Origin: a virus
Strand: one strand, 5' to 3'
Virus record (IMG/VR): IMGVR_UViG_3300049733_000033
Location: 1 to 20,118 of that record
DNA length: 20,118 bases
The notes beneath the pieces are model-generated. The model saw only the letters and a list, made by a program, of their open reading frames with translations. It did no database searches and was not told the origin of the DNA. How positions within the stretch are numbered: position 1 is the stretch's first letter; every line of letters begins with the position of its first letter. The translations under genes were made by a program, and so were the position numbers. Below, in pieces: positions 1 to 20,118 of this stretch.

Positions 1-66
1 TGGCCGGTTGAGTGCGTAGCGACGTAGGAGCGAGCAACGATGACCGGACGACGCGGCTTGCCCCGG

Positions 67-96
67 AGTCTACCGCTTCCGCCCCTCGCGTGTCAA
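67..96 (-). promoter_or_regulatory. Leftward sigma70-type promoter, phage-specific variant
   Basis: Read on the minus strand there is a perfect TTGACA (91-96), an 18-base spacer and TAGACT (67-72), which matches TATAAT at four of six positions. The spacer contains AGGGG and GCGG blocks that recur in the promoter at 20051-20080; 23 of the 30 bases are identical between the two. It points out of the window to the left, so its genes are not visible here. The match between two independent sites is the main support. Confidence 0.6.
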
Positions 97-109
97 GACT
101 TGCTTTCTG

Positions 110-2768: not shown

Positions 2769-2968
2769 GGTTCGCTGCAAAATCATTTCTGGCGACGGCG
2801 CTCGCGTTCAACGTCGCCTATCTGCTCGTCGCGCTTTGGTTCGGCGGCTTCGGTCCGATCGGGGTCGCGATCGCGGCCGGCGTGATCGTGTGGAACATCG
2901 TGGCTATGGTTCCCTTGCGCCAGGCGCCGCGCTTCCCGCCGCGCACGCACGATTCGCTCGGTCTGTAG
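2765..2968 (+). CDS. Small membrane protein, last gene of the early operon
   Basis: A 67-residue protein with two hydrophobic stretches, roughly residues 7-26 (FLATALAFNVAYLLVALWF) and 30-50 (PIGVAIAAGVIVWNIVAMV), and a basic, Pro-rich tail. It is probably a two-pass inner-membrane protein, for example a superinfection-exclusion or holin-like factor, but no family is recognised. GAGGAGG lies just upstream and the ATG overlaps the previous stop (ATGA), both good evidence for translation. Most of it (2783-2968) runs antisense to the 3' end of the leftward endonuclease gene. A candidate terminator begins 24 bases after its stop. Confidence 0.55.
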   Translation: MRFAAKSFLATALAFNVAYLLVALWFGGFGPIGVAIAAGVIVWNIVAMVPLRQAPRFPPRTHDSLGL

Positions 2969-3400
2969 AGCGGCCTCGCCGCTTCTCACTTGCGGCGGCC
3001 CGTAGCACAGGACTAACCATCCGAGCTCGGCCGCCGCGTTTCTTTTTTCGTAGTCTTTGAGACGGCCGACGCCGCGCGCGTGGCGGCCGGCCTCGGTGCC
3101 GTTTTCGGCCGCGAAGATCCCGCCGTCGAGCTCGACGGCGACGAGCTCGTCGGGAAAGGCGAAGTCGAAGCGCCAACGCCGCTCGGGATGAAATCTGAAT
3201 TCCCGCTCGGGCTTGAGCTGCATGACGGCGAGGTGCCCGGCCAGTTCTGATTCCAGCGGCGACGCTCTTCCTCGAGTCGCTGCCTTTGCTCGCGCGGTAG
3301 CTGGCTCTCTGCTCGGCGCGGATATGTCGAGTGGAGCCAATGCCCCGCTGCGGCCGTGTCGTCGCTCATAGTCCTGCCATTGTTCCTCGGTCCACCTCAT
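2783..3400 (-). CDS. PD-(D/E)XK-like endonuclease domain protein
   Basis: A leftward 205-residue protein. After an N-terminus of polar helix (residues 1-50) comes a compact nuclease-like core at about 50-150: EREFRFHPERRWRFDFAFP, then VAVELDGG, then GRHARGVGRLKDYEKRNAAA and GWLVLCYG. The D79...E90 pair followed by a basic helix fits PD-(D/E)XK nucleases of the DUF559/Vsr-like group, which phages often use in replication or recombination. Residues 145-205, rich in Arg, His and Asp, are antisense to the membrane-protein gene and may be a poorly constrained tail. The ATG overlaps the stop of the initiator-like gene (ATGA on the minus strand), so the two are coupled and a role in DNA replication or resolution is likely. 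Confidence 0.65.
   Translation of the reverse strand: MRWTEEQWQDYERRHGRSGALAPLDISAPSREPATARAKAATRGRASPLESELAGHLAVMQLKPEREFRFHPERRWRFDFAFPDELVAVELDGGIFAAENGTEAGRHARGVGRLKDYEKRNAAAELGWLVLCYGPPQVRSGEAALQTERIVRARREARRLAQGNHSHDVPHDHAGRDRDPDRTEAAEPKRDEQIGDVERERRRQK
2992..3048 (+). terminator. Candidate terminator of the rightward early operon
   Basis: GCGGCGGCC (2992-3000) pairs perfectly with GGCCGCCGC (3029-3037), followed by a T-rich tract TTTCTTTTTT (3039-3048). The 28-base loop is longer than usual. It lies 24 bases after the stop of the last rightward small gene, the right place to end that operon, and is embedded antisense in the endonuclease gene. Confidence 0.45.
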
Positions 3401-4002
3401 GACGATACCCGCTGAAGGCCCTCGCGTCTTGGCCGCGCTCGGCGGCGGTGCTCGCGTTCGTACTCCTCTTCGGCCGTCAGCTTGCCCGACTGCGCGCGTT
3501 GATCGAGCTCGTCGTCTGAGAGTGCCGCTGCGGCTCGAACGCGCGACTCTTTGTTCGCGGCGCTTTTTGCGCCTCTTTGGATCAATAACGGATCTATTAC
3601 GGATGGGGCGAACGTGGTTCGCCCTTGTGCGTCTCCACGTTCGCCCTTCCGTGTCGCGCCGTTCGCCCCCCTGCGAACGGCGTTCGCCCTTGTGGATAAC
3701 TGCTCCTCGGGCGCGATGTGGCCGTCGTGATCGAAGCGGAGGCGGTATTGGCTCGCGGAGTTGCGGCCGTACTGGTGGCCGCCTTGAGAAACCTCGATGA
3801 GGCCGCGCGCCTCGAGCGAGCGCAGGCGCTTTTGTACGGCCCGGCGAGTAAGCCGGGCGCGGCGAGCGATGGTAGACACGCTCGGCCAGCATTGGCGCGT
3901 GTCATCGCTCGCGTAGTCGGCCAGAGCGATCAGGACGAGAGTATCGCTCGCGCTTAAGTCCGGTAGCTTGTCGAGTACCGTCGCAACATATCGTATGGAC
4001 AC
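3397..4002 (-). CDS. Winged-helix replication-initiator-like protein (HTH_36 type)
   Basis: A leftward 201-residue protein. Residues 1-70 match the HTH_36-type domain of phage and plasmid initiators: LSASDTLVLIALADYASDD, a CWPS motif, STIARRARLTRRAVQKRLRSLEARGLI as helix-turn-helix and YRLRF as the wing end. A polar linker (100-140) precedes a charged C-terminal region (SDDELDQRAQSGKLTAEEEYEREHRRRAR), possibly for partner contact. By analogy with lambda O, it would bind origin iterons and recruit the helicase; the DNA encoding the linker indeed carries iterons. GTG at 4002 has GGGGAG five bases upstream and is preferred over a TTG at 4044 with no ribosome site. The 3' end overlaps the endonuclease start. 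Confidence 0.7.
   Translation of the reverse strand: MSIRYVATVLDKLPDLSASDTLVLIALADYASDDTRQCWPSVSTIARRARLTRRAVQKRLRSLEARGLIEVSQGGHQYGRNSASQYRLRFDHDGHIAPEEQLSTRANAVRRGANGATRKGERGDAQGRTTFAPSVIDPLLIQRGAKSAANKESRVRAAAALSDDELDQRAQSGKLTAEEEYEREHRRRARPRREGLQRVSS
3579..3604. repeat. A+T-rich 11-mer tandem repeat, candidate unwinding element
   Basis: GGATCAATAAC (3579-3589) is followed directly by GGATCTATTAC (3590-3600) and GGAT (3601-3604). The two 11-mers differ at two positions. This lies in an A+T-rich patch (about 3564-3604, 24 of 40 bases A or T) within otherwise G+C-rich DNA and is next to the iterons. GATCTATT resembles the start of the E. coli oriC 13-mers. A duplex-unwinding role is inferred. 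Confidence 0.55.
3606..3689. repeat. Iteron array, four GTTCGCCC copies
   Basis: GTTCGCCC occurs at 3617-3624, 3639-3646, 3661-3668 and 3682-3689, spaced 22, 22 and 21 bases, about two helical turns. Three of the copies continue as CTT. An inverted GGGCGAAC at 3606-3613 pairs with the first copy across a three-base gap, and GCGAACG at 3673-3679 forms another inverted repeat with CGTTCGC at 3681-3687. Even spacing on one face of the helix suggests binding of a multimeric protein. Confidence 0.75.
3691..3699 (-). promoter_or_regulatory. Perfect DnaA box
   Basis: TGTGGATAA on the plus strand is TTATCCACA on the minus strand, an exact match to the strong E. coli DnaA box. It abuts the last iteron, from which it is separated by one base. 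Such a 9-mer can occur by chance, but its position beside iterons and an A+T-rich repeat makes a role in initiation likely. Confidence 0.6.
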
Positions 4003-4012
4003 TAGGTCTCCC

Positions 4013-4028
4013 CTACTACCGGTGGTAG
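4013..4028. promoter_or_regulatory. Dyad over the ribosome site of the initiator gene
   Basis: CTACTACC (4013-4020) and GGTGGTAG (4021-4028) form a 16-bp dyad with one mismatch. It lies 11 bases upstream of the leftward GTG at 4002 and touches its Shine-Dalgarno (GGGGAG, minus strand, 4008-4013). It could be an operator for autoregulation of the initiator gene, or an RNA hairpin that limits ribosome access. Confidence 0.4.
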
Positions 4029-4078
4029 TCGGGGCATCTTCCAAATTTTGTAAAACGGATGCAATATCCCGCTCTGCG

Positions 4079-4150: not shown

Positions 4151-5056
4151 ATGCCGAAGAAGCAAACACGCAAGTCTCAAGCAGAACGGCCCGAGCCCGA
4201 GGCCGAAGAAATTCCGCCGCAGGAATTCGACGCGCGTCACTACCAGCAAGACGCGCTCGACGCGCGCCACGGTCGCACGGTCGCGCCGAGCGGCGGCCTC
4301 GACAAGTACGGTCGATTCGTCGGCTGCAACGGATGGGACAAGGCGCGCGGGCCGTGCGATCGGTTCTTGCTCAACTGGCATCGACGCGCGGGCAAGGATC
4401 GCTTCGGGCTCGAGCTCATTCGCGAAGAGTGCGAGCGGCGCGTCGGTTCGTACTGGCACCTCTACCCGCTGCAAGTGCAGGCGAAAAAAGCGATTTGGAA
4501 CGCGGTCGATACGGCGACTGGGACGCGGCTTCTCGACTTGGTCTTTCCCGAGGCGATGCGCGACGGCAAGCCGAACGATCAAGAACTCTTTATGCGGTTC
4601 AAGAACGGCAGCACGTATCAGCTCTGCGGCTCCGACGCCTACGATCGGCTCGTCGGCGCGAATCCGGTCGGGTTGCTGAAGTCCGAATGGGCGCTGTGCG
4701 ACCCGCGCTCATGGGGCTACCTCTCGCCGATCCTGCTCGAGAATGGCGGCTGGGCGGCGTTTATCACGACCTATCGCGGGCGCAACCACGCGTATCAGAT
4801 GGCGCAGAAGCTGCGCACGAATCCGCTGTGGTACGTGGACGTGCGCACCATCGACATGACGCGGCGCGCGAACGGCGAGCCCGTCGTCGCGCCGGCCGAC
4901 GTGCGCGCGGAGCGTGAGAGCTTGGTCACGATGCACGGCGCCGTGCGTGCCGATGCTCTGATTCAGGAAGAGTTTTACTGCAATCCAATGGCGAGCGCTC
5001 CGGGCTCGGTCTACGGTGCTTCAGTGGCAAAAATGCTTGCGGAGGGAAGAGCATGA
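4151..5056 (+). CDS. terL: Terminase large subunit, ATPase half (split gene)
   Basis: A 301-residue protein that corresponds to the N-terminal DNA-packaging motor ATPase. Visible motifs are a Walker A-like HRRAGKD (77-83), a Walker B region GLLKSEWAL (174-182), with SEW in place of the usual DE, and the coupling motif FITTYRGRNH (204-213). The segment QEEFYCNPMASAPGSVYG near the end matches the linker of this terminase family, where the chain normally continues into the nuclease. Here a TGA ends it right after MLAEGRA. The nuclease half follows in the same frame at 5390, beyond an inserted gene. The ATG at 4151 has no good Shine-Dalgarno, so expression may be low or structured. The two halves together (about 510 residues) equal a normal terminase. 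Confidence 0.85.
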   Translation: MPKKQTRKSQAERPEPEAEEIPPQEFDARHYQQDALDARHGRTVAPSGGLDKYGRFVGCNGWDKARGPCDRFLLNWHRRAGKDRFGLELIREECERRVGSYWHLYPLQVQAKKAIWNAVDTATGTRLLDLVFPEAMRDGKPNDQELFMRFKNGSTYQLCGSDAYDRLVGANPVGLLKSEWALCDPRSWGYLSPILLENGGWAAFITTYRGRNHAYQMAQKLRTNPLWYVDVRTIDMTRRANGEPVVAPADVRAERESLVTMHGAVRADALIQEEFYCNPMASAPGSVYGASVAKMLAEGRA

Positions 5057-5388
5057 AATTAGCAGTGCTTTTGGTCGCGTGCGCGTTGGCGATTCCGGTC
5101 GCGGCGGTCGAGAAAACTTTCTCTTGGACGGCGCCGACGGCCTATACCGACGGGACGCCGCTACCGGCGGCGCAGATCGCCGGCTATACGCTGAATTGCT
5201 CGCCGACACGCACACTCGCGATTGCGGGCGCCGTCACGACGTTCAAAGCCGACTTCGGGCCCGGCTCGCATACGTGTGCGCTCGTGACGCGCGCGGCGAA
5301 CGGGCAAGTTAGCGCGCCGAGTAACAGCGTAAATTTTACGGTGCCGCAGCCAGTGCCGAATGCCGCAACGGGCCTATCCGTCGAATGA
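5053..5388 (+). CDS. Secreted fibronectin type III-like protein inserted within the terminase
   Basis: A 111-residue protein with a clear N-terminal signal peptide: KLAVLLVACALAIPVAA, probably cleaved near VAA-VEK (residue 18). The mature part looks like one fibronectin-III domain: FSWTAPTAYTDGTPL, AGYTLNCS, then SHTCALVTRAANGQVSAPSNSVNFTV. Such domains mediate binding to surfaces or sugars and occur in phage structural and secreted proteins. GGAGGG lies eight bases before the ATG, which overlaps the ATPase stop (ATGA). It separates the two terminase halves. A lipobox-like LVAC occurs at residues 7-10 but is too near the N-terminus to be convincing. It is probably a moron-like cargo gene acting in the periplasm or at the cell surface. 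Confidence 0.7.
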   Translation: MKLAVLLVACALAIPVAAVEKTFSWTAPTAYTDGTPLPAAQIAGYTLNCSPTRTLAIAGAVTTFKADFGPGSHTCALVTRAANGQVSAPSNSVNFTVPQPVPNAATGLSVE

Positions 5389-5389
5389 A

Positions 5390-6016
5390 ATGGCTGCGGC
5401 GAGTCTACCGTTGCGGGAGGTGAGGGCCGGCTATGACGCCGCTTTTCCTGTGTCCGCTTCATGGGCGCTCGAATTTGCGCCGGTCAACTTGTCCGTTCTG
5501 TTTATGCAGAGAGACGGAAACGAGCACCGCTGCATCGGCTCGCGCTCGTGGTTCTTCGCCGAGCTCGCCGACTGCATCGCCGAGGCTCGAGAGGTTTTCC
5601 CGTGGCGCGTGTCGCGGCACCTCATTCCGCCCGACGAGAAAGGCGTTTGGCGTCAGATGTTCGAACGGCTTGAGCTCTTCAACGCGTGGAACGTGCCGGC
5701 CTTTCCCGACAATCAACGGATGCTGCTCACGCAGCAATTCTTGTCGCGACTCACGATCGATACAGCGTCGCGACCGTGGGAGCCGGACGGCAATAACTCG
5801 ACGCTCATCGATAGCCTCAACGGCTACAAGGTCAAGGAGCTCGCCAGTCACAGCGATGCTTTCACGATGAACATTCTCGGCACGCACGAGCAGTACCTAA
5901 CGCGCGCGCTCGAGCACTACGCCGCTTGGGACTGGCGTCGGCCGGCCTCGACCTGGGGGCCGAAGGTCGATTACTCGAAAGACGACAAGAGGCTCGTCAA
6001 AGCGTGGAGACGATGA
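5390..6016 (+). CDS. terL: Terminase large subunit, nuclease half (split gene, degenerate active site)
   Basis: A 208-residue protein that aligns by eye with the C-terminal RNase H-like nuclease of terminases: YDAAFPVSASWALEF, LSVLFMQRDG, HLIPPDE (77-83), LLTQQFLSR, STLIDSLNGYKVKE and SHSDAF (153-158). In the family, the first strand normally reads WDLG or WDIG followed by a second Asp; here it is WALE (25-28) then APVN, so the first metal-binding Asp seems absent, while the late Asp in SHSDAF remains. I choose ATG 5390, one base after the stop of the inserted gene, for reinitiation; an in-frame ATG at 5360 overlaps that gene. It is in the same frame as the ATPase half. The stop overlaps the portal start. 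Confidence 0.75.
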   Translation: MAAASLPLREVRAGYDAAFPVSASWALEFAPVNLSVLFMQRDGNEHRCIGSRSWFFAELADCIAEAREVFPWRVSRHLIPPDEKGVWRQMFERLELFNAWNVPAFPDNQRMLLTQQFLSRLTIDTASRPWEPDGNNSTLIDSLNGYKVKELASHSDAFTMNILGTHEQYLTRALEHYAAWDWRRPASTWGPKVDYSKDDKRLVKAWRR

Positions 6017-8073
6017 CCGACACGGAAATTCTGCAAGCGATCAAGCGGCAGCTCTTGGAATGCGCCGGATGGGACGGCGACGAGCTCGCGACGGATCGCG
6101 AGAAAGCGCTCGACTACTACCATCAACGGCCGAACGGCACCGAGGTAGAGGGGCGCAGCCAGGCAGTTTCCGGCGACGTGTCGGCGATGGTCGAGAGCAA
6201 TCTTGCCGCGATGATGCAGAGCTTCAGCTCGTCGCGCATCGTCGAATTCGACTCACTCAGCGCCGACGACGAATCGCAAGCGCAGCTCGAGAGCGACGCG
6301 TGCGCGTTCTTCGTCATGAAGAAAAACAACGGCCGCTGGCAGCTCGGGCAGGCGATCAAAGAAACGCTACGGCTGCGCAATGGTTGGGTAAAAGCGTGGA
6401 TCGAGGAGCGGCGCACGACGCGGATTCAAGAGTACGTGAACGTCGCGCCCGAGGCGTTGCTCGAGCTCACCGAGCGTCCCGGCGTCGAGTGCACCGTGCT
6501 CGAGTACGATCCCGAGAAAGACGGCGGCTATCTCAAGACGCGCTGCGTGTACGTCGATCGGCGTTTCAGCTTCGGCGCGGTCGCGCCGGGGAATATGTTC
6601 TATCCGAAGGCGTACGACGGTTGCGACTTCGAAGCGTTGCAGCGAATCCCGATCATCGCCGAGCGACGGATCGACACGCGCGCGACGCTCGTCGAAATGG
6701 GCTTTCCGAAAGCGGCCGTCGATCGATGCACGGAGTATCGCGCCGACACGAACACGAGCGAGGCCGCGCGCAATCCGCGCCGCAATTCGCAACTGACGCC
6801 GGGGCTCGACTTCGCGAGCCAGCTCGTCGAATGGTTCGAGGCTTACGTGCTGCTCGACGGCGTTCGGCACAAGGTGTGCTGCGACGGGAAGTTTCAGGAG
6901 AAATTCGCGAAGGGCGAGCACGAGCTCGTGCCCTACGGCACGGGGCAGTGTTTCATTACGCCGCATCGGCTCACGGGGCTCTCGATCTGGGACAAGCTGC
7001 GGCAGACGCAGGACATCAACACGGGCCTTACGCGCGGGATGCTCGACAACGTCGAGGCGACGAGCAAGAGCCGCACGGCGCACCTCGACGAAGTCGTCAA
7101 CGCCGACGACCTGGGCGACGGGCGCGTCAACGGTTCCGTTCGCGTGCGCGGCTTCGTGCCGCGCGTCGCCGATGCGATCATGCCGCTCGTGGTGCCCGAT
7201 ACGTCGGCGGGCATCGTGCGCGCGATCGACTATCAGCGGCGTATTCGAACCGAGCTCGGCGGCTCGTCGCTCGACATGCAAGCGGGCGAGATGCAGCTCT
7301 CGGACCGCGTCGGCTCGCAAGGGCTCGACCGTGCTTACAGCGTCGCCGAACAGCTCGCGCAGCACATGACGCAGAACATCGCCGACACGCTGATTCGCTC
7401 GGCGTTCTTACTCGCGCACGCCGTGCTCCGCGAGAATTTCGACGAGCCTGTGCCGATCAAGGTAGGCGGGCGGTGGAAGTCGGCGATTCCCTCGGAATGG
7501 ATCGAGCGCGAAGAGCTCACGGTCAAGATCGGCAAGTCGCCGGGCGAGCGCGCGCGCTTGATGGCCGTGCTCGACAAGATGCTGCAAACGCACTTGCAGC
7601 TCGAGCAGCTCGGGTTCAACGGCATTCTGACGGACCTCGAGGGGTTCTATGCGCTGCTCATGGATTGGGCCCGCCTCGGCGACGTGCCGCATCCCGAGCG
7701 CTATTACCTCGATCCGCAGTCCGAGGGCTCGGTCGCGGCGCAGCAGCAGCGCGCGCAGGCCGCGCAGGCGCGCGAGAAGCAACAGACGGCGCTCGTCACT
7801 GAGGCGGTCAACTTGCAGAAGATCGGCGAGGCCGGCAAGAAGTACGACGGCGACGCCGATCGCGCCGTGCGAGTGTGGGAAAAGAAGGTAGACACGAAGC
7901 TCGAGTACGCGAAGCTCGGGCAGCAAGGCGAAGTCGAAGAGGCAAAGCTCGTCATGCCGGCAGCGGCGAAGATGCTCGAGGAGCACCGTGGACAAAAAAC
8001 AGGACGCGCGAAACCTAAAGGGAAGTCCGCTGCTGGCCGAGGTGCTAAAGCAGGAAAGGGGGCAAGCACTTGA
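6013..8073 (+). CDS. Portal protein
   Basis: A 686-residue head-tail connector, forming the dodecameric ring through which DNA is packaged. The N-terminus is typical of podovirus-like portals: a helix, then DREKALDYYHQRPNGTEVEGRSQAVSGDVSAMVESNLAAMM. The middle includes NMFYPK and a helical segment with DIQ-type replacement by DINTGLTRGMLDNVEA, and the C-terminus (about 570-686) is a long Gln/Ala/Lys-rich helix with a basic Gly/Lys tail. ATG 6013 overlaps the nuclease-half stop (ATGA) with GGAG upstream. Position directly after terminase is canonical. The last 86 bases overlap the next gene. Confidence 0.88.
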   Translation: MTDTEILQAIKRQLLECAGWDGDELATDREKALDYYHQRPNGTEVEGRSQAVSGDVSAMVESNLAAMMQSFSSSRIVEFDSLSADDESQAQLESDACAFFVMKKNNGRWQLGQAIKETLRLRNGWVKAWIEERRTTRIQEYVNVAPEALLELTERPGVECTVLEYDPEKDGGYLKTRCVYVDRRFSFGAVAPGNMFYPKAYDGCDFEALQRIPIIAERRIDTRATLVEMGFPKAAVDRCTEYRADTNTSEAARNPRRNSQLTPGLDFASQLVEWFEAYVLLDGVRHKVCCDGKFQEKFAKGEHELVPYGTGQCFITPHRLTGLSIWDKLRQTQDINTGLTRGMLDNVEATSKSRTAHLDEVVNADDLGDGRVNGSVRVRGFVPRVADAIMPLVVPDTSAGIVRAIDYQRRIRTELGGSSLDMQAGEMQLSDRVGSQGLDRAYSVAEQLAQHMTQNIADTLIRSAFLLAHAVLRENFDEPVPIKVGGRWKSAIPSEWIEREELTVKIGKSPGERARLMAVLDKMLQTHLQLEQLGFNGILTDLEGFYALLMDWARLGDVPHPERYYLDPQSEGSVAAQQQRAQAAQAREKQQTALVTEAVNLQKIGEAGKKYDGDADRAVRVWEKKVDTKLEYAKLGQQGEVEEAKLVMPAAAKMLEEHRGQKTGRAKPKGKSAAGRGAKAGKGAST

Positions 8074-9005: not shown

Positions 9006-10067
9006 ATGGCTCAGCCTGGTGACTCTCTCTCGGCAGCCGATCTTCGCGCCGTCAATGTTGGCGGCTTGCTCAACGAAGACGTGCTGGCGAAGGTCTACGA
9101 CATTTCGCCGATCGAAACGCCGTACCTCGACGCCGTCAGCGGCGGCTCGTACGACAATCCCTATCACTCGTGGGTGCAAGACACGTTGACCGCGACGACG
9201 GCGGCCGACGCTCAGATCGACGGCGCGGATATCACGCCGACGATGGCGGCGAGCGGCGCGCGCGTCGGCAATCACGGGCAGATTTCCACGCAGGGAATCA
9301 ACGTCTCCGAAGTCACGCAGCACTCCGATCCGATCGGGCGCGCGGCCGAAGAGGCGTATCAGCGTGTGCGCATGATCAACTTGCTGCAGAACCGCATCGA
9401 ATGCGCGGCGCTGTCGAAGCAAGCGAGCGTCGCCGACAACGGCTCGAGCGTGGCCGGCGTGACGGCGGGTCTCGCGGCGTGGATCACGACGAATCGATCG
9501 CTCGGCTCGGGCGGATCGGGCGGCGGGTTCAACACCTCGACGAGCATCGTCGATACGTTCACCGTCGGCACGTCGCGCGCGCTGACCTGGGCCATGATTT
9601 CGACGCAGATCGAAAACTGCTATCTCGTCGGCGCGAAGCCGACGAAGATCTTCAGCAGGCCCGAGGTGACGAAGCGTCTCGGAATCTACCTGATTAGCTC
9701 TGACTTCTTCGTCGCGCCAGTCGCGAACGTCGGCGGCGAGAGCGTGAGCCCGGTCGAGATGAGCGGCTACGTCGATACGTTCCGTACGGACTTCGGATAC
9801 ACGATGACCGTGCATCCGGTGCGGAACATGGCGCTCTACGATTCGGCCGACACAAACTCGACGGCCGACGCGACGGGGCTCTTCGGTATCGATCCGATGC
9901 ATGTCGCCGTGCGGCGCATGTGGGGCACGAAGATCGACAAGCTCGGCAAAACGGGCTTGAGCGATCGGTCGTTCGTCTCGACGCATTGGTCGAACGACTG
10001 CTTGCTCGAGCGCGCGCACTTCTTCATCGGCGATCTACAGCCGACGGCAGCGGTCGCGGCGTCCTAA
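9006..10067 (+). CDS. Major capsid protein, SU10/DUF5309 type
   Basis: A 353-residue HK97-fold shell protein. Family signs are the opening LNEDVLAKVYDISPIETPYL, the NPYHSWVQDTL segment, a beta-rich N-arm region with AQIDGADITP, TQGINVSEVTQHSDPIG followed by the EEAYQRVRMINLLQNRIECA spine helix, and the A-domain segment with ALTWAMISTQIENCY. The C-terminal part includes YTMTVHPVRNMALYD and a terminal FVSTHWSNDCLLERAHFFIGDLQ. This matches the SU10 major capsid protein family by pattern. AAGGGG lies upstream of the ATG. It follows the scaffold gene and is the most confident structural call in the window. Confidence 0.9.
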   Translation: MAQPGDSLSAADLRAVNVGGLLNEDVLAKVYDISPIETPYLDAVSGGSYDNPYHSWVQDTLTATTAADAQIDGADITPTMAASGARVGNHGQISTQGINVSEVTQHSDPIGRAAEEAYQRVRMINLLQNRIECAALSKQASVADNGSSVAGVTAGLAAWITTNRSLGSGGSGGGFNTSTSIVDTFTVGTSRALTWAMISTQIENCYLVGAKPTKIFSRPEVTKRLGIYLISSDFFVAPVANVGGESVSPVEMSGYVDTFRTDFGYTMTVHPVRNMALYDSADTNSTADATGLFGIDPMHVAVRRMWGTKIDKLGKTGLSDRSFVSTHWSNDCLLERAHFFIGDLQPTAAVAAS

Positions 10068-11073: not shown

Positions 11074-11339
11074 GCGCGATCGTCCGAGCGTCCGTGTCGC
11101 TGGCGCTGCGCGAGGCGCAGCTCGCGCGCGAGCAACGCGTCGAGACTCAGCACGCGCCGTTCGCCGAGCACACTTTGCGCGTGCCTACTTCGCACTGGAA
11201 AGCGCTCGCGATGATCTTCCCTGGGCTCAATTCGAAAGATCATGACGAGTACGAAGAGGCGATGAAGCGACTGCACGCGTCGCCGCTCGCCGATCCCTAC
11301 CGCGTGCGCAACCGGCGAGCTCAGCTCGGGCACCTATGA
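11070..11339 (+). CDS. Hypothetical phage protein
   Basis: An 89-residue basic protein. After a helical N-terminus (SLALREAQLAREQRVE) it has TLRVPTSHWKALAMIFPGLNSKDHDEYEEAMKRLHASPLADPYR, a pattern I recall from small phage proteins encoded between capsid and tail-adaptor genes, whose function is not known to me. GTG at 11070 overlaps the upstream stop (GTGA); the 3' end overlaps the adaptor start (ATGA). Confidence 0.6.
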   Translation: MSAIVRASVSLALREAQLAREQRVETQHAPFAEHTLRVPTSHWKALAMIFPGLNSKDHDEYEEAMKRLHASPLADPYRVRNRRAQLGHL

Positions 11340-11968
11340 ACTTCGGCCAGCTCAAGACGCAGATCATCGCGCTCGCGCATCGTACCGGCGACGCCGTCAC
11401 GACGGCGCAATGCCCGGCCTTCGTCGCGATGGCCGAGGGGATGCTTCGGCGCGAACTCACGGCGCTGCCGCTCTCGATCGTGCTCGACGACGATGACCGC
11501 GACGCCGAAGGCGTCTATACGCTGCCCGCCGTCGCCACGCAGGTTCGCGCGATCTACGGCACGGAGGAGAGCGGCCAGTACGCGCTCAAGCAAGTCTCGC
11601 TCGAGGAAATCAAGCGACTGAAGGCGTCGGCGACGCCTCTGAATTTCGCCGTGATCGGCGACACGATCGAGTTTCGAGGGGTGCCGTCGGAAGACGACGA
11701 ATTCACGTTGCACTACCTCGGGCATCCCGTGGCGCTCTCGGCCGACGGCGATACAAACGACCTCTTGACCAATCACGAAGCGCTGTACGTGTACGGCGCG
11801 CTCTTCTACCTCTACCAGTTCACGCAAGACGTGGAGCTCGCGCAGGGGGCGATGGATACGTTCCGCCAAGCGCTCGAGCGACTGAACGCGCAGACGGCGC
11901 GCAAGCTCGCCGGCGCGCGCATCGCAAGCACGTACGACTTTGGGCCGATCGGAAACTACGGGTACTGA
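11336..11968 (+). CDS. Head-tail adaptor protein
   Basis: A 210-residue protein of the phage adaptor/tail-tubular-A type, which sits under the portal and joins the head to the tail. Features are the N-terminal helices (FGQLKTQIIALAHRTGD, then FVAMAEGMLRRELTALPLS), a beta segment (GVYTLPAVATQVRAIYG), the FAVIGDTIEFRGVPSEDDEFTLHYLG hairpin and the acidic helix LLTNHEALYVYGALFYLYQFTQD that follows. These match the pattern of adaptors in podovirus-like genomes. ATG 11336 overlaps the upstream stop. The order of capsid, decoration, adaptor and fibre supports it. Confidence 0.75.
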   Translation: MNFGQLKTQIIALAHRTGDAVTTAQCPAFVAMAEGMLRRELTALPLSIVLDDDDRDAEGVYTLPAVATQVRAIYGTEESGQYALKQVSLEEIKRLKASATPLNFAVIGDTIEFRGVPSEDDEFTLHYLGHPVALSADGDTNDLLTNHEALYVYGALFYLYQFTQDVELAQGAMDTFRQALERLNAQTARKLAGARIASTYDFGPIGNYGY

Positions 11969-20027: not shown

Positions 20028-20050
20028 CACCAATCGAGCCACCGCACCTC

Positions 20051-20080
20051 TTGACACGGCAGGGGAGGTAGAGGTATGCT
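20051..20080 (+). promoter_or_regulatory. Rightward sigma70-type promoter, twin of the one at 67-96
   Basis: A perfect TTGACA (20051-20056), an 18-base spacer and TATGCT (20075-20080), four of six to TATAAT. The spacer carries the same AGGGG and GG blocks as the leftward promoter at 67-96 (13 of 18 spacer bases identical). It points out of the window to the right, so it should drive the next gene block, not the late genes seen here. Confidence 0.65.
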
Positions 20081-20118
20081 CAGGACCGCTCCGCGGAAAA
20101 GATAGCCTCGGCATTCTT

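Follow-up and report, generated by a model that had tools for sequence, protein, structure and literature searches.

In the window (the whole 20,118-base IMG/VR virus record, which is linear), the ATPase part and the nuclease-like part of a large terminase (TerL) are encoded by two genes with a third gene, for a small secreted-looking protein, between them. This locus raises the question of how the terminase came to be divided, and of what its second part still does. The best explanation, to which we assign a probability of about 0.8, is a two-subunit large terminase in which a non-cutting part was split from the ATPase and the intervening cargo gene was inserted later.

Genes of the terminase region

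The features on which the argument depends are as follows.

2783..3400, minus strand: phrog_503 conserved protein, beside the replication gene
3397..4044, minus strand: replication-initiation-like protein (HTH_36, RepO-like; phrog_270, E 3e-19; PF13730), kept across the two-gene subclade
4151..5056, plus strand: TerL ATPase subunit (ATG 4151, TGA 5054-5056, 301 aa, C-terminus ...LAEGRA), with the motifs HRRAGKD (Walker A-like), SEWAL and TYRGRNH and with EGRA directly before the stop
5041..5046, plus strand: GGAGGG, ribosome-binding-like site within the 3' end of the ATPase gene, ahead of the cargo ATG
5053..5388, plus strand: cargo gene, small secreted-looking protein, complete ORF of 111 aa
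5390..6016, plus strand: TerL nuclease-like subunit, from ATG 5390 (208 aa) or GTG 5420 to the stop TGA 6014-6016
6013..8073, plus strand: portal protein (SU10_portal; Pfam PF23899, E 4e-97)
9006..10067, plus strand: major capsid protein (SU10_MCP; Pfam PF17236), common to the whole nuclease-dead clade
11336..11968, plus strand: head-tail adaptor (SU10_adaptor; Pfam PF24175)

ORF calls bore out the gene limits given in the initial annotation: the ATPase half stops at 5056, the nuclease half restarts at 5390 in the ATPase frame, and between them lies a complete gene which has its own GGAGGG and whose ATG overlaps the ATPase stop (ATGA). The summed length of the halves, put at about 510 residues, is 301 + 208 = 509 aa. 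A G-rich stretch precedes the ATPase/nuclease-like junction in relatives too. At 5386-5392 the cargo stop and the ATG of the nuclease-like gene form the sequence TGA-A-ATG, and GTG 5420 aligns with the start codon of the nuclease-like gene in relatives; ATG 5390 is the likely start in the window, with GTG 5420 as the alternative, ancestral one. The portal gene in turn overlaps the stop of the nuclease-like gene by 4 bases. The ATPase subunit shares 36-44% identity with annotated TerLs (BLAST) and 63-71% with its relatives, and the Walker A, Walker B and coupling motifs of the P-loop ATPase domain are invariant in alignment A4. A second, intact terminase, which the initial annotation had allowed for, is absent from the rest of the 20,118-base record. 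Elsewhere in the window, the ORF at 1371-1865 contains about 49 hexanucleotide repeats (period 6 in TRF), which encode Gly runs with Asp, Tyr or Asn.

Age and origin of the split

Relatives were sought first with each half as the query and afterwards with small profiles. Eight other IMG/VR contigs belong to the window subclade and represent about five lineages besides the window. In all eight, the ATPase and nuclease-like proteins are encoded by consecutive genes with an overlap of exactly 4 bases (RTGA: ATGA or GTGA) and no gene between them, the ATPase ends in ...EGRA, and the nuclease-like gene lies in the -1 frame. Only the window has a cargo gene at this junction, exactly at the old ATPase/nuclease boundary. 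Sequencing error as the source of the split is rejected because these eight contigs share it. The initial annotation took the secreted-protein gene itself to be what divided the terminase. An insertion that broke a formerly fused gene would fit the position of the cargo exactly between the halves and their common reading frame; however, the close relatives all have two genes already, without cargo, and the common frame is a coincidence, since the relatives use the -1 frame, so that we give this origin almost no credence. The terminase split is older than the cargo insertion.

The initial annotation had also left room for ribosomes or RNA processing to join the halves. Frameshifting or splicing that unites them as one protein finds some encouragement in the -1 frame overlap of the relatives, yet no slippery heptamer is conserved at the junctions (by eye), no Rfam intron family was matched, and in the window a complete gene and a gap of more than 330 bases lie between the halves; we consider such joining very improbable. 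The suggestion that the motor consists of two polypeptides has held up, the genes being separate in the window and in its relatives alike.

As anticipated, a fused single gene does occur in related phages, at a greater distance: 167 more distant ATPase-relative loci are single long ORFs. One of these single-ORF relatives (L088) matches the two window halves at its two ends (49% and 42%), and the split site corresponds to the linker EGR-I/R of the fused relatives. Besides broken or truncated sequences, the only further two-gene case among the more distant ATPase relatives is L096 (L096/L232, 2205-3544); this TerL is likewise nuclease-dead, its genes overlap by ATGA, and its split appears to be independent. 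Parsimony counts two splits (the window group and L096), but L096 is a long branch. Among relatives, dN/dS was 0.00-0.25 for both halves, which indicates purifying selection.

The cargo protein has an N-terminus that looks by eye like a signal peptide, MKLAVLLVACALAIPVAA. Its earlier labelling as a fibronectin III protein reflects a sequence pattern only; no fn3 profile match was obtained in Pfam (E up to 1), for its two relatives, or in the PDB. These relatives occur in just two unrelated phage contigs (L052 and L053), where the neighbours by eye are portal and capsid genes in one contig and lysis-type genes in the other; no other genome in the group carries the cargo gene. Such scattered relatives are as expected of a mobile moron. 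Duplication of the junction sequence flanking the cargo was not significant, 356 of 2000 shuffles being equally good. In two relatives, small ORFs that by eye resemble membrane-protein genes separate the portal gene from the nuclease-like gene (L044, about 5200-5479; L002, 3011-3334); the terminase region therefore gains extra genes repeatedly.

Fold and active site of the nuclease-like subunit

The initial annotation assigned 5390-6016 to the terminase nucleases, and profile, model and structure comparisons all point the same way. When 23 C-terminal domains and the nuclease domains of ten active TerLs were each made into a profile, hhalign matched the two over 156 columns (probability 98.6%, E 5e-16). 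The AlphaFold2 model of the subunit reached a pLDDT of 84.9 with a 23-sequence alignment (37 with 7 sequences), and its best Foldseek matches were the G20c, SPP1 and D6E terminase nucleases. VIA-align gave Z 15.2 to D6E TerL (5oe8; rmsd 3.5 over 155 residues), 13.8 to SPP1 and 13.2 to T4 gp17. Judged by these profiles and by the model, the second half is a terminase nuclease fold (RNase H-fold). Searches with this half found no match in GenBank phages and none in bacterial genomes.

What the initial annotation overlooked, and the more interesting fact, is that this half has lost its active site. Catalytic residues were counted in a single alignment comprising 29 active TerLs, 6 two-gene proteins and 21 further sequences from the dead group. 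The first catalytic Asp (D1) is present in 29/29 active, 2/21 other dead and 0/6 two-gene proteins, the last having Ala; D2 in 29/29, 12/21 and 1/6; and D3 in 27/29, 0/21 and 0/6, with Arg at this position in the two-gene proteins. We equated D1, D2 and D3 with D294, D347 and D429 of G20c TerL by motif order, not by superposition; all three of these are essential in G20c, while D300 is not (PMC5389553). The Asp of an SH-D-AF motif was considered as a retained D3 and rejected, as a deeper alignment places D3 at the Arg of YLxRA. Measured against the TerL family, the window thus encodes the ATPase domain and the RNase H-fold nuclease domain and departs from it in the Asp triad and the single polypeptide.

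These substitutions suggest that the nuclease-like subunit is vestigial and would not catalyse DNA cleavage. The contrary reading is an endonuclease that is still active and cuts in trans with a rebuilt metal site made of an invariant Glu28, an acid near residue 82 and another invariant Asp. Glu28 lies on the same strand two residues past the lost D1 and does not vary within the two-gene clade, and an acidic residue near D2 is kept in most members. Nevertheless, all six two-gene members have Arg in place of D3, the matching Asp residues are indispensable in G20c TerL (PMC5389553), and D1 has been replaced by different residues (S, N, G or A) across the dead clade, the pattern expected of loss; we therefore consider retained activity unlikely. 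Since both genes are under purifying selection, the nuclease-like protein appears to be kept for another role, which by analogy may most simply be contact with DNA or with the portal; the C-terminal domain (CTD) of phi29 gp16 has been shown to bind DNA (PMC7672431).

To place the loss in the history of the group, a tree was built from the ATPase part alone, without the columns of the trait itself; L111 and L154, which have intact motifs, were labelled in the final tree as not nuclease-dead. All 33 nuclease-dead rows fell on one side of one branch (100/100), and the two-gene group of the window was nested among them (100/99), beside the fused L070 (96/97). The nuclease was lost once, in a small-genome lineage. 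Among contigs of at least 15 kb, which may be partial genomes, 0/18 from the dead clade exceeded 20.2 kb, whereas 13/20 with active terminases exceeded 20.5 kb. Structural genes from terminase to tail follow a common order across the group.

PF03175, the phi29-type family of protein-primed DNA polymerases, was found in 11 dead-clade contigs of 17.4-19.4 kb and above cut-off in 0/14 control genomes. Strong terminal inverted repeats were present in 9 of these 11 contigs; in L231, about 154 bases at both extreme ends match at roughly 93%. The window subclade (G000-G008) has no PF03175 and no clear inverted terminal repeat, and PF03175 was likewise absent from L096, L074, L089 and L093. Contigs L222-L231 and L233 are uncultured phages of 17-19 kb which combine SU10-type capsid genes, a protein-primed DNA polymerase and a nuclease-dead TerL. 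No close relative of the dead-clade terminases or of the PF03175 polymerase was found among GenBank phages. A fused nuclease-dead TerL with SU10-type portal and capsid genes was also observed in a 5.16-Mb chromosome labelled as a Thermoplasmata archaeon (L142, 5716-7248), which is either a prophage or a mislabelled genome.

Genome ends, known systems and a possible history

Vestigial terminase nucleases are already known from phi29 (PMC7672431; reviewed in PMC11476376). Like the present clade, phi29 gp16 has a nuclease-dead RNase H-fold CTD and serves a genome of about 19 kb with a protein-primed polymerase, which here is found in relatives of the window (PMC7672431). In contrast, gp16 is one polypeptide and uses a pRNA, while in the window subclade the terminase is encoded by two genes and the protein-primed polymerase is missing; also unlike phi29, the portal, capsid and adaptor here are SU10-type and the terminase is of a canonical TerL family. 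The nearest annotated TerLs, those of Alteromonas phage ZP6, Acetobacter phiAX1 and Rhizobium RHph_I3_18, are 42-44% identical in the ATPase and come from genomes of 38-51 kb.

In Arthrobacter phages of cluster AY (BillyTP genes 2 and 3), as here, the TerL ATPase and nuclease are encoded by consecutive overlapping genes directly before the portal gene (PMC11920828, PMC12820723); the arrangement is therefore not new in kind. It recurs in the eight relatives, and in the window cargo intervenes. Cluster AY differs from the window in that its members are temperate siphophages of 53 kb, unrelated in sequence, with a 17-base overlap and no cargo between the genes, and its nuclease retains the acidic motifs FDGS, YCDPQDW and KIDAA (by eye), whereas the two-gene clade here lacks the acidic active site. 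The literature covered (most subscription papers and all preprints lay outside it) describes neither this lineage nor a split, nuclease-dead TerL, nor a terminase with cargo lodged between its halves; the combination of split and nuclease loss, and the lineage itself, thus appear to be undescribed.

We propose that unit-length genomes abolished the need for cutting by the terminase and that the nuclease domain would then have decayed. A small change in the linker after ...EGR may have turned one gene into two with the 4-base RTGA overlap, which is observed, and this overlap would couple translation and yield roughly equal synthesis of the two proteins. The nuclease-like protein would join the ATPase ring non-covalently as a non-cutting part of the motor that touches DNA, the portal, or both. 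A mobile cargo gene would have inserted at the junction in the window alone and captured the old ribosome site, leaving the nuclease-like gene to be translated by re-initiation at TGA-A-ATG.

The window subclade, with RepO-like and phrog_503 genes and without a protein-primed polymerase, is a gap in the unit-length account: either its ends are made by some other mechanism, or another enzyme cuts. The phrog_503 protein, which may resemble Vsr-like endonucleases and is a putative trans nuclease, occurs at 40-66% identity in all complete genomes of the two-gene clade. In the two-gene subclade, a separate nuclease of this kind could have assumed the task of cutting the genome, which would be compatible with a two-subunit, non-cutting terminase; the absence of the polymerase there and the lack of any phrog_503 match in the polymerase-bearing kin speak in its favour. 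Against this, the protein has no match in Pfam, NCBIfam or PADLOC and may act solely in replication or recombination, and we regard such a takeover as doubtful.

Near each end of the window an outward-pointing TTGACA-N17/18-TANNNT occurs once (about 60-100, minus strand; 20045-20085, plus strand) and nowhere else. The same outward sites occur, again once per end and nowhere else, near both ends of L044, L047 and L051 and at the right end only of L050, and the left ends of L047 and L051 carry long hairpins ending at or near the contig end. The sites could belong to a gene for a pRNA-like RNA, be promoters that converge across the junction of a circle, or result from a break in the assembly; Rfam gave no pRNA, intron or structured RNA match. 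Tentatively, and with less than even confidence, we suggest that small SU10-type phages may have reached a phi29-like life independently, with protein-primed linear genomes of 18-20 kb that dispensed with cutting by the terminase, a single decay of the nuclease, its conversion to a separate subunit in two sublineages and, in the polymerase-less window subclade, another route to defined ends, perhaps involving structured, pRNA-like RNAs transcribed outward from both ends.

Mahler et al. left open why phi29 lost its terminase nuclease, whether owing to the pRNA or to unit-length packaging (PMC7672431). With the lineage described here this question becomes testable, and the two-gene form provides a natural separation of the motor ATPase from the C-terminal domain.
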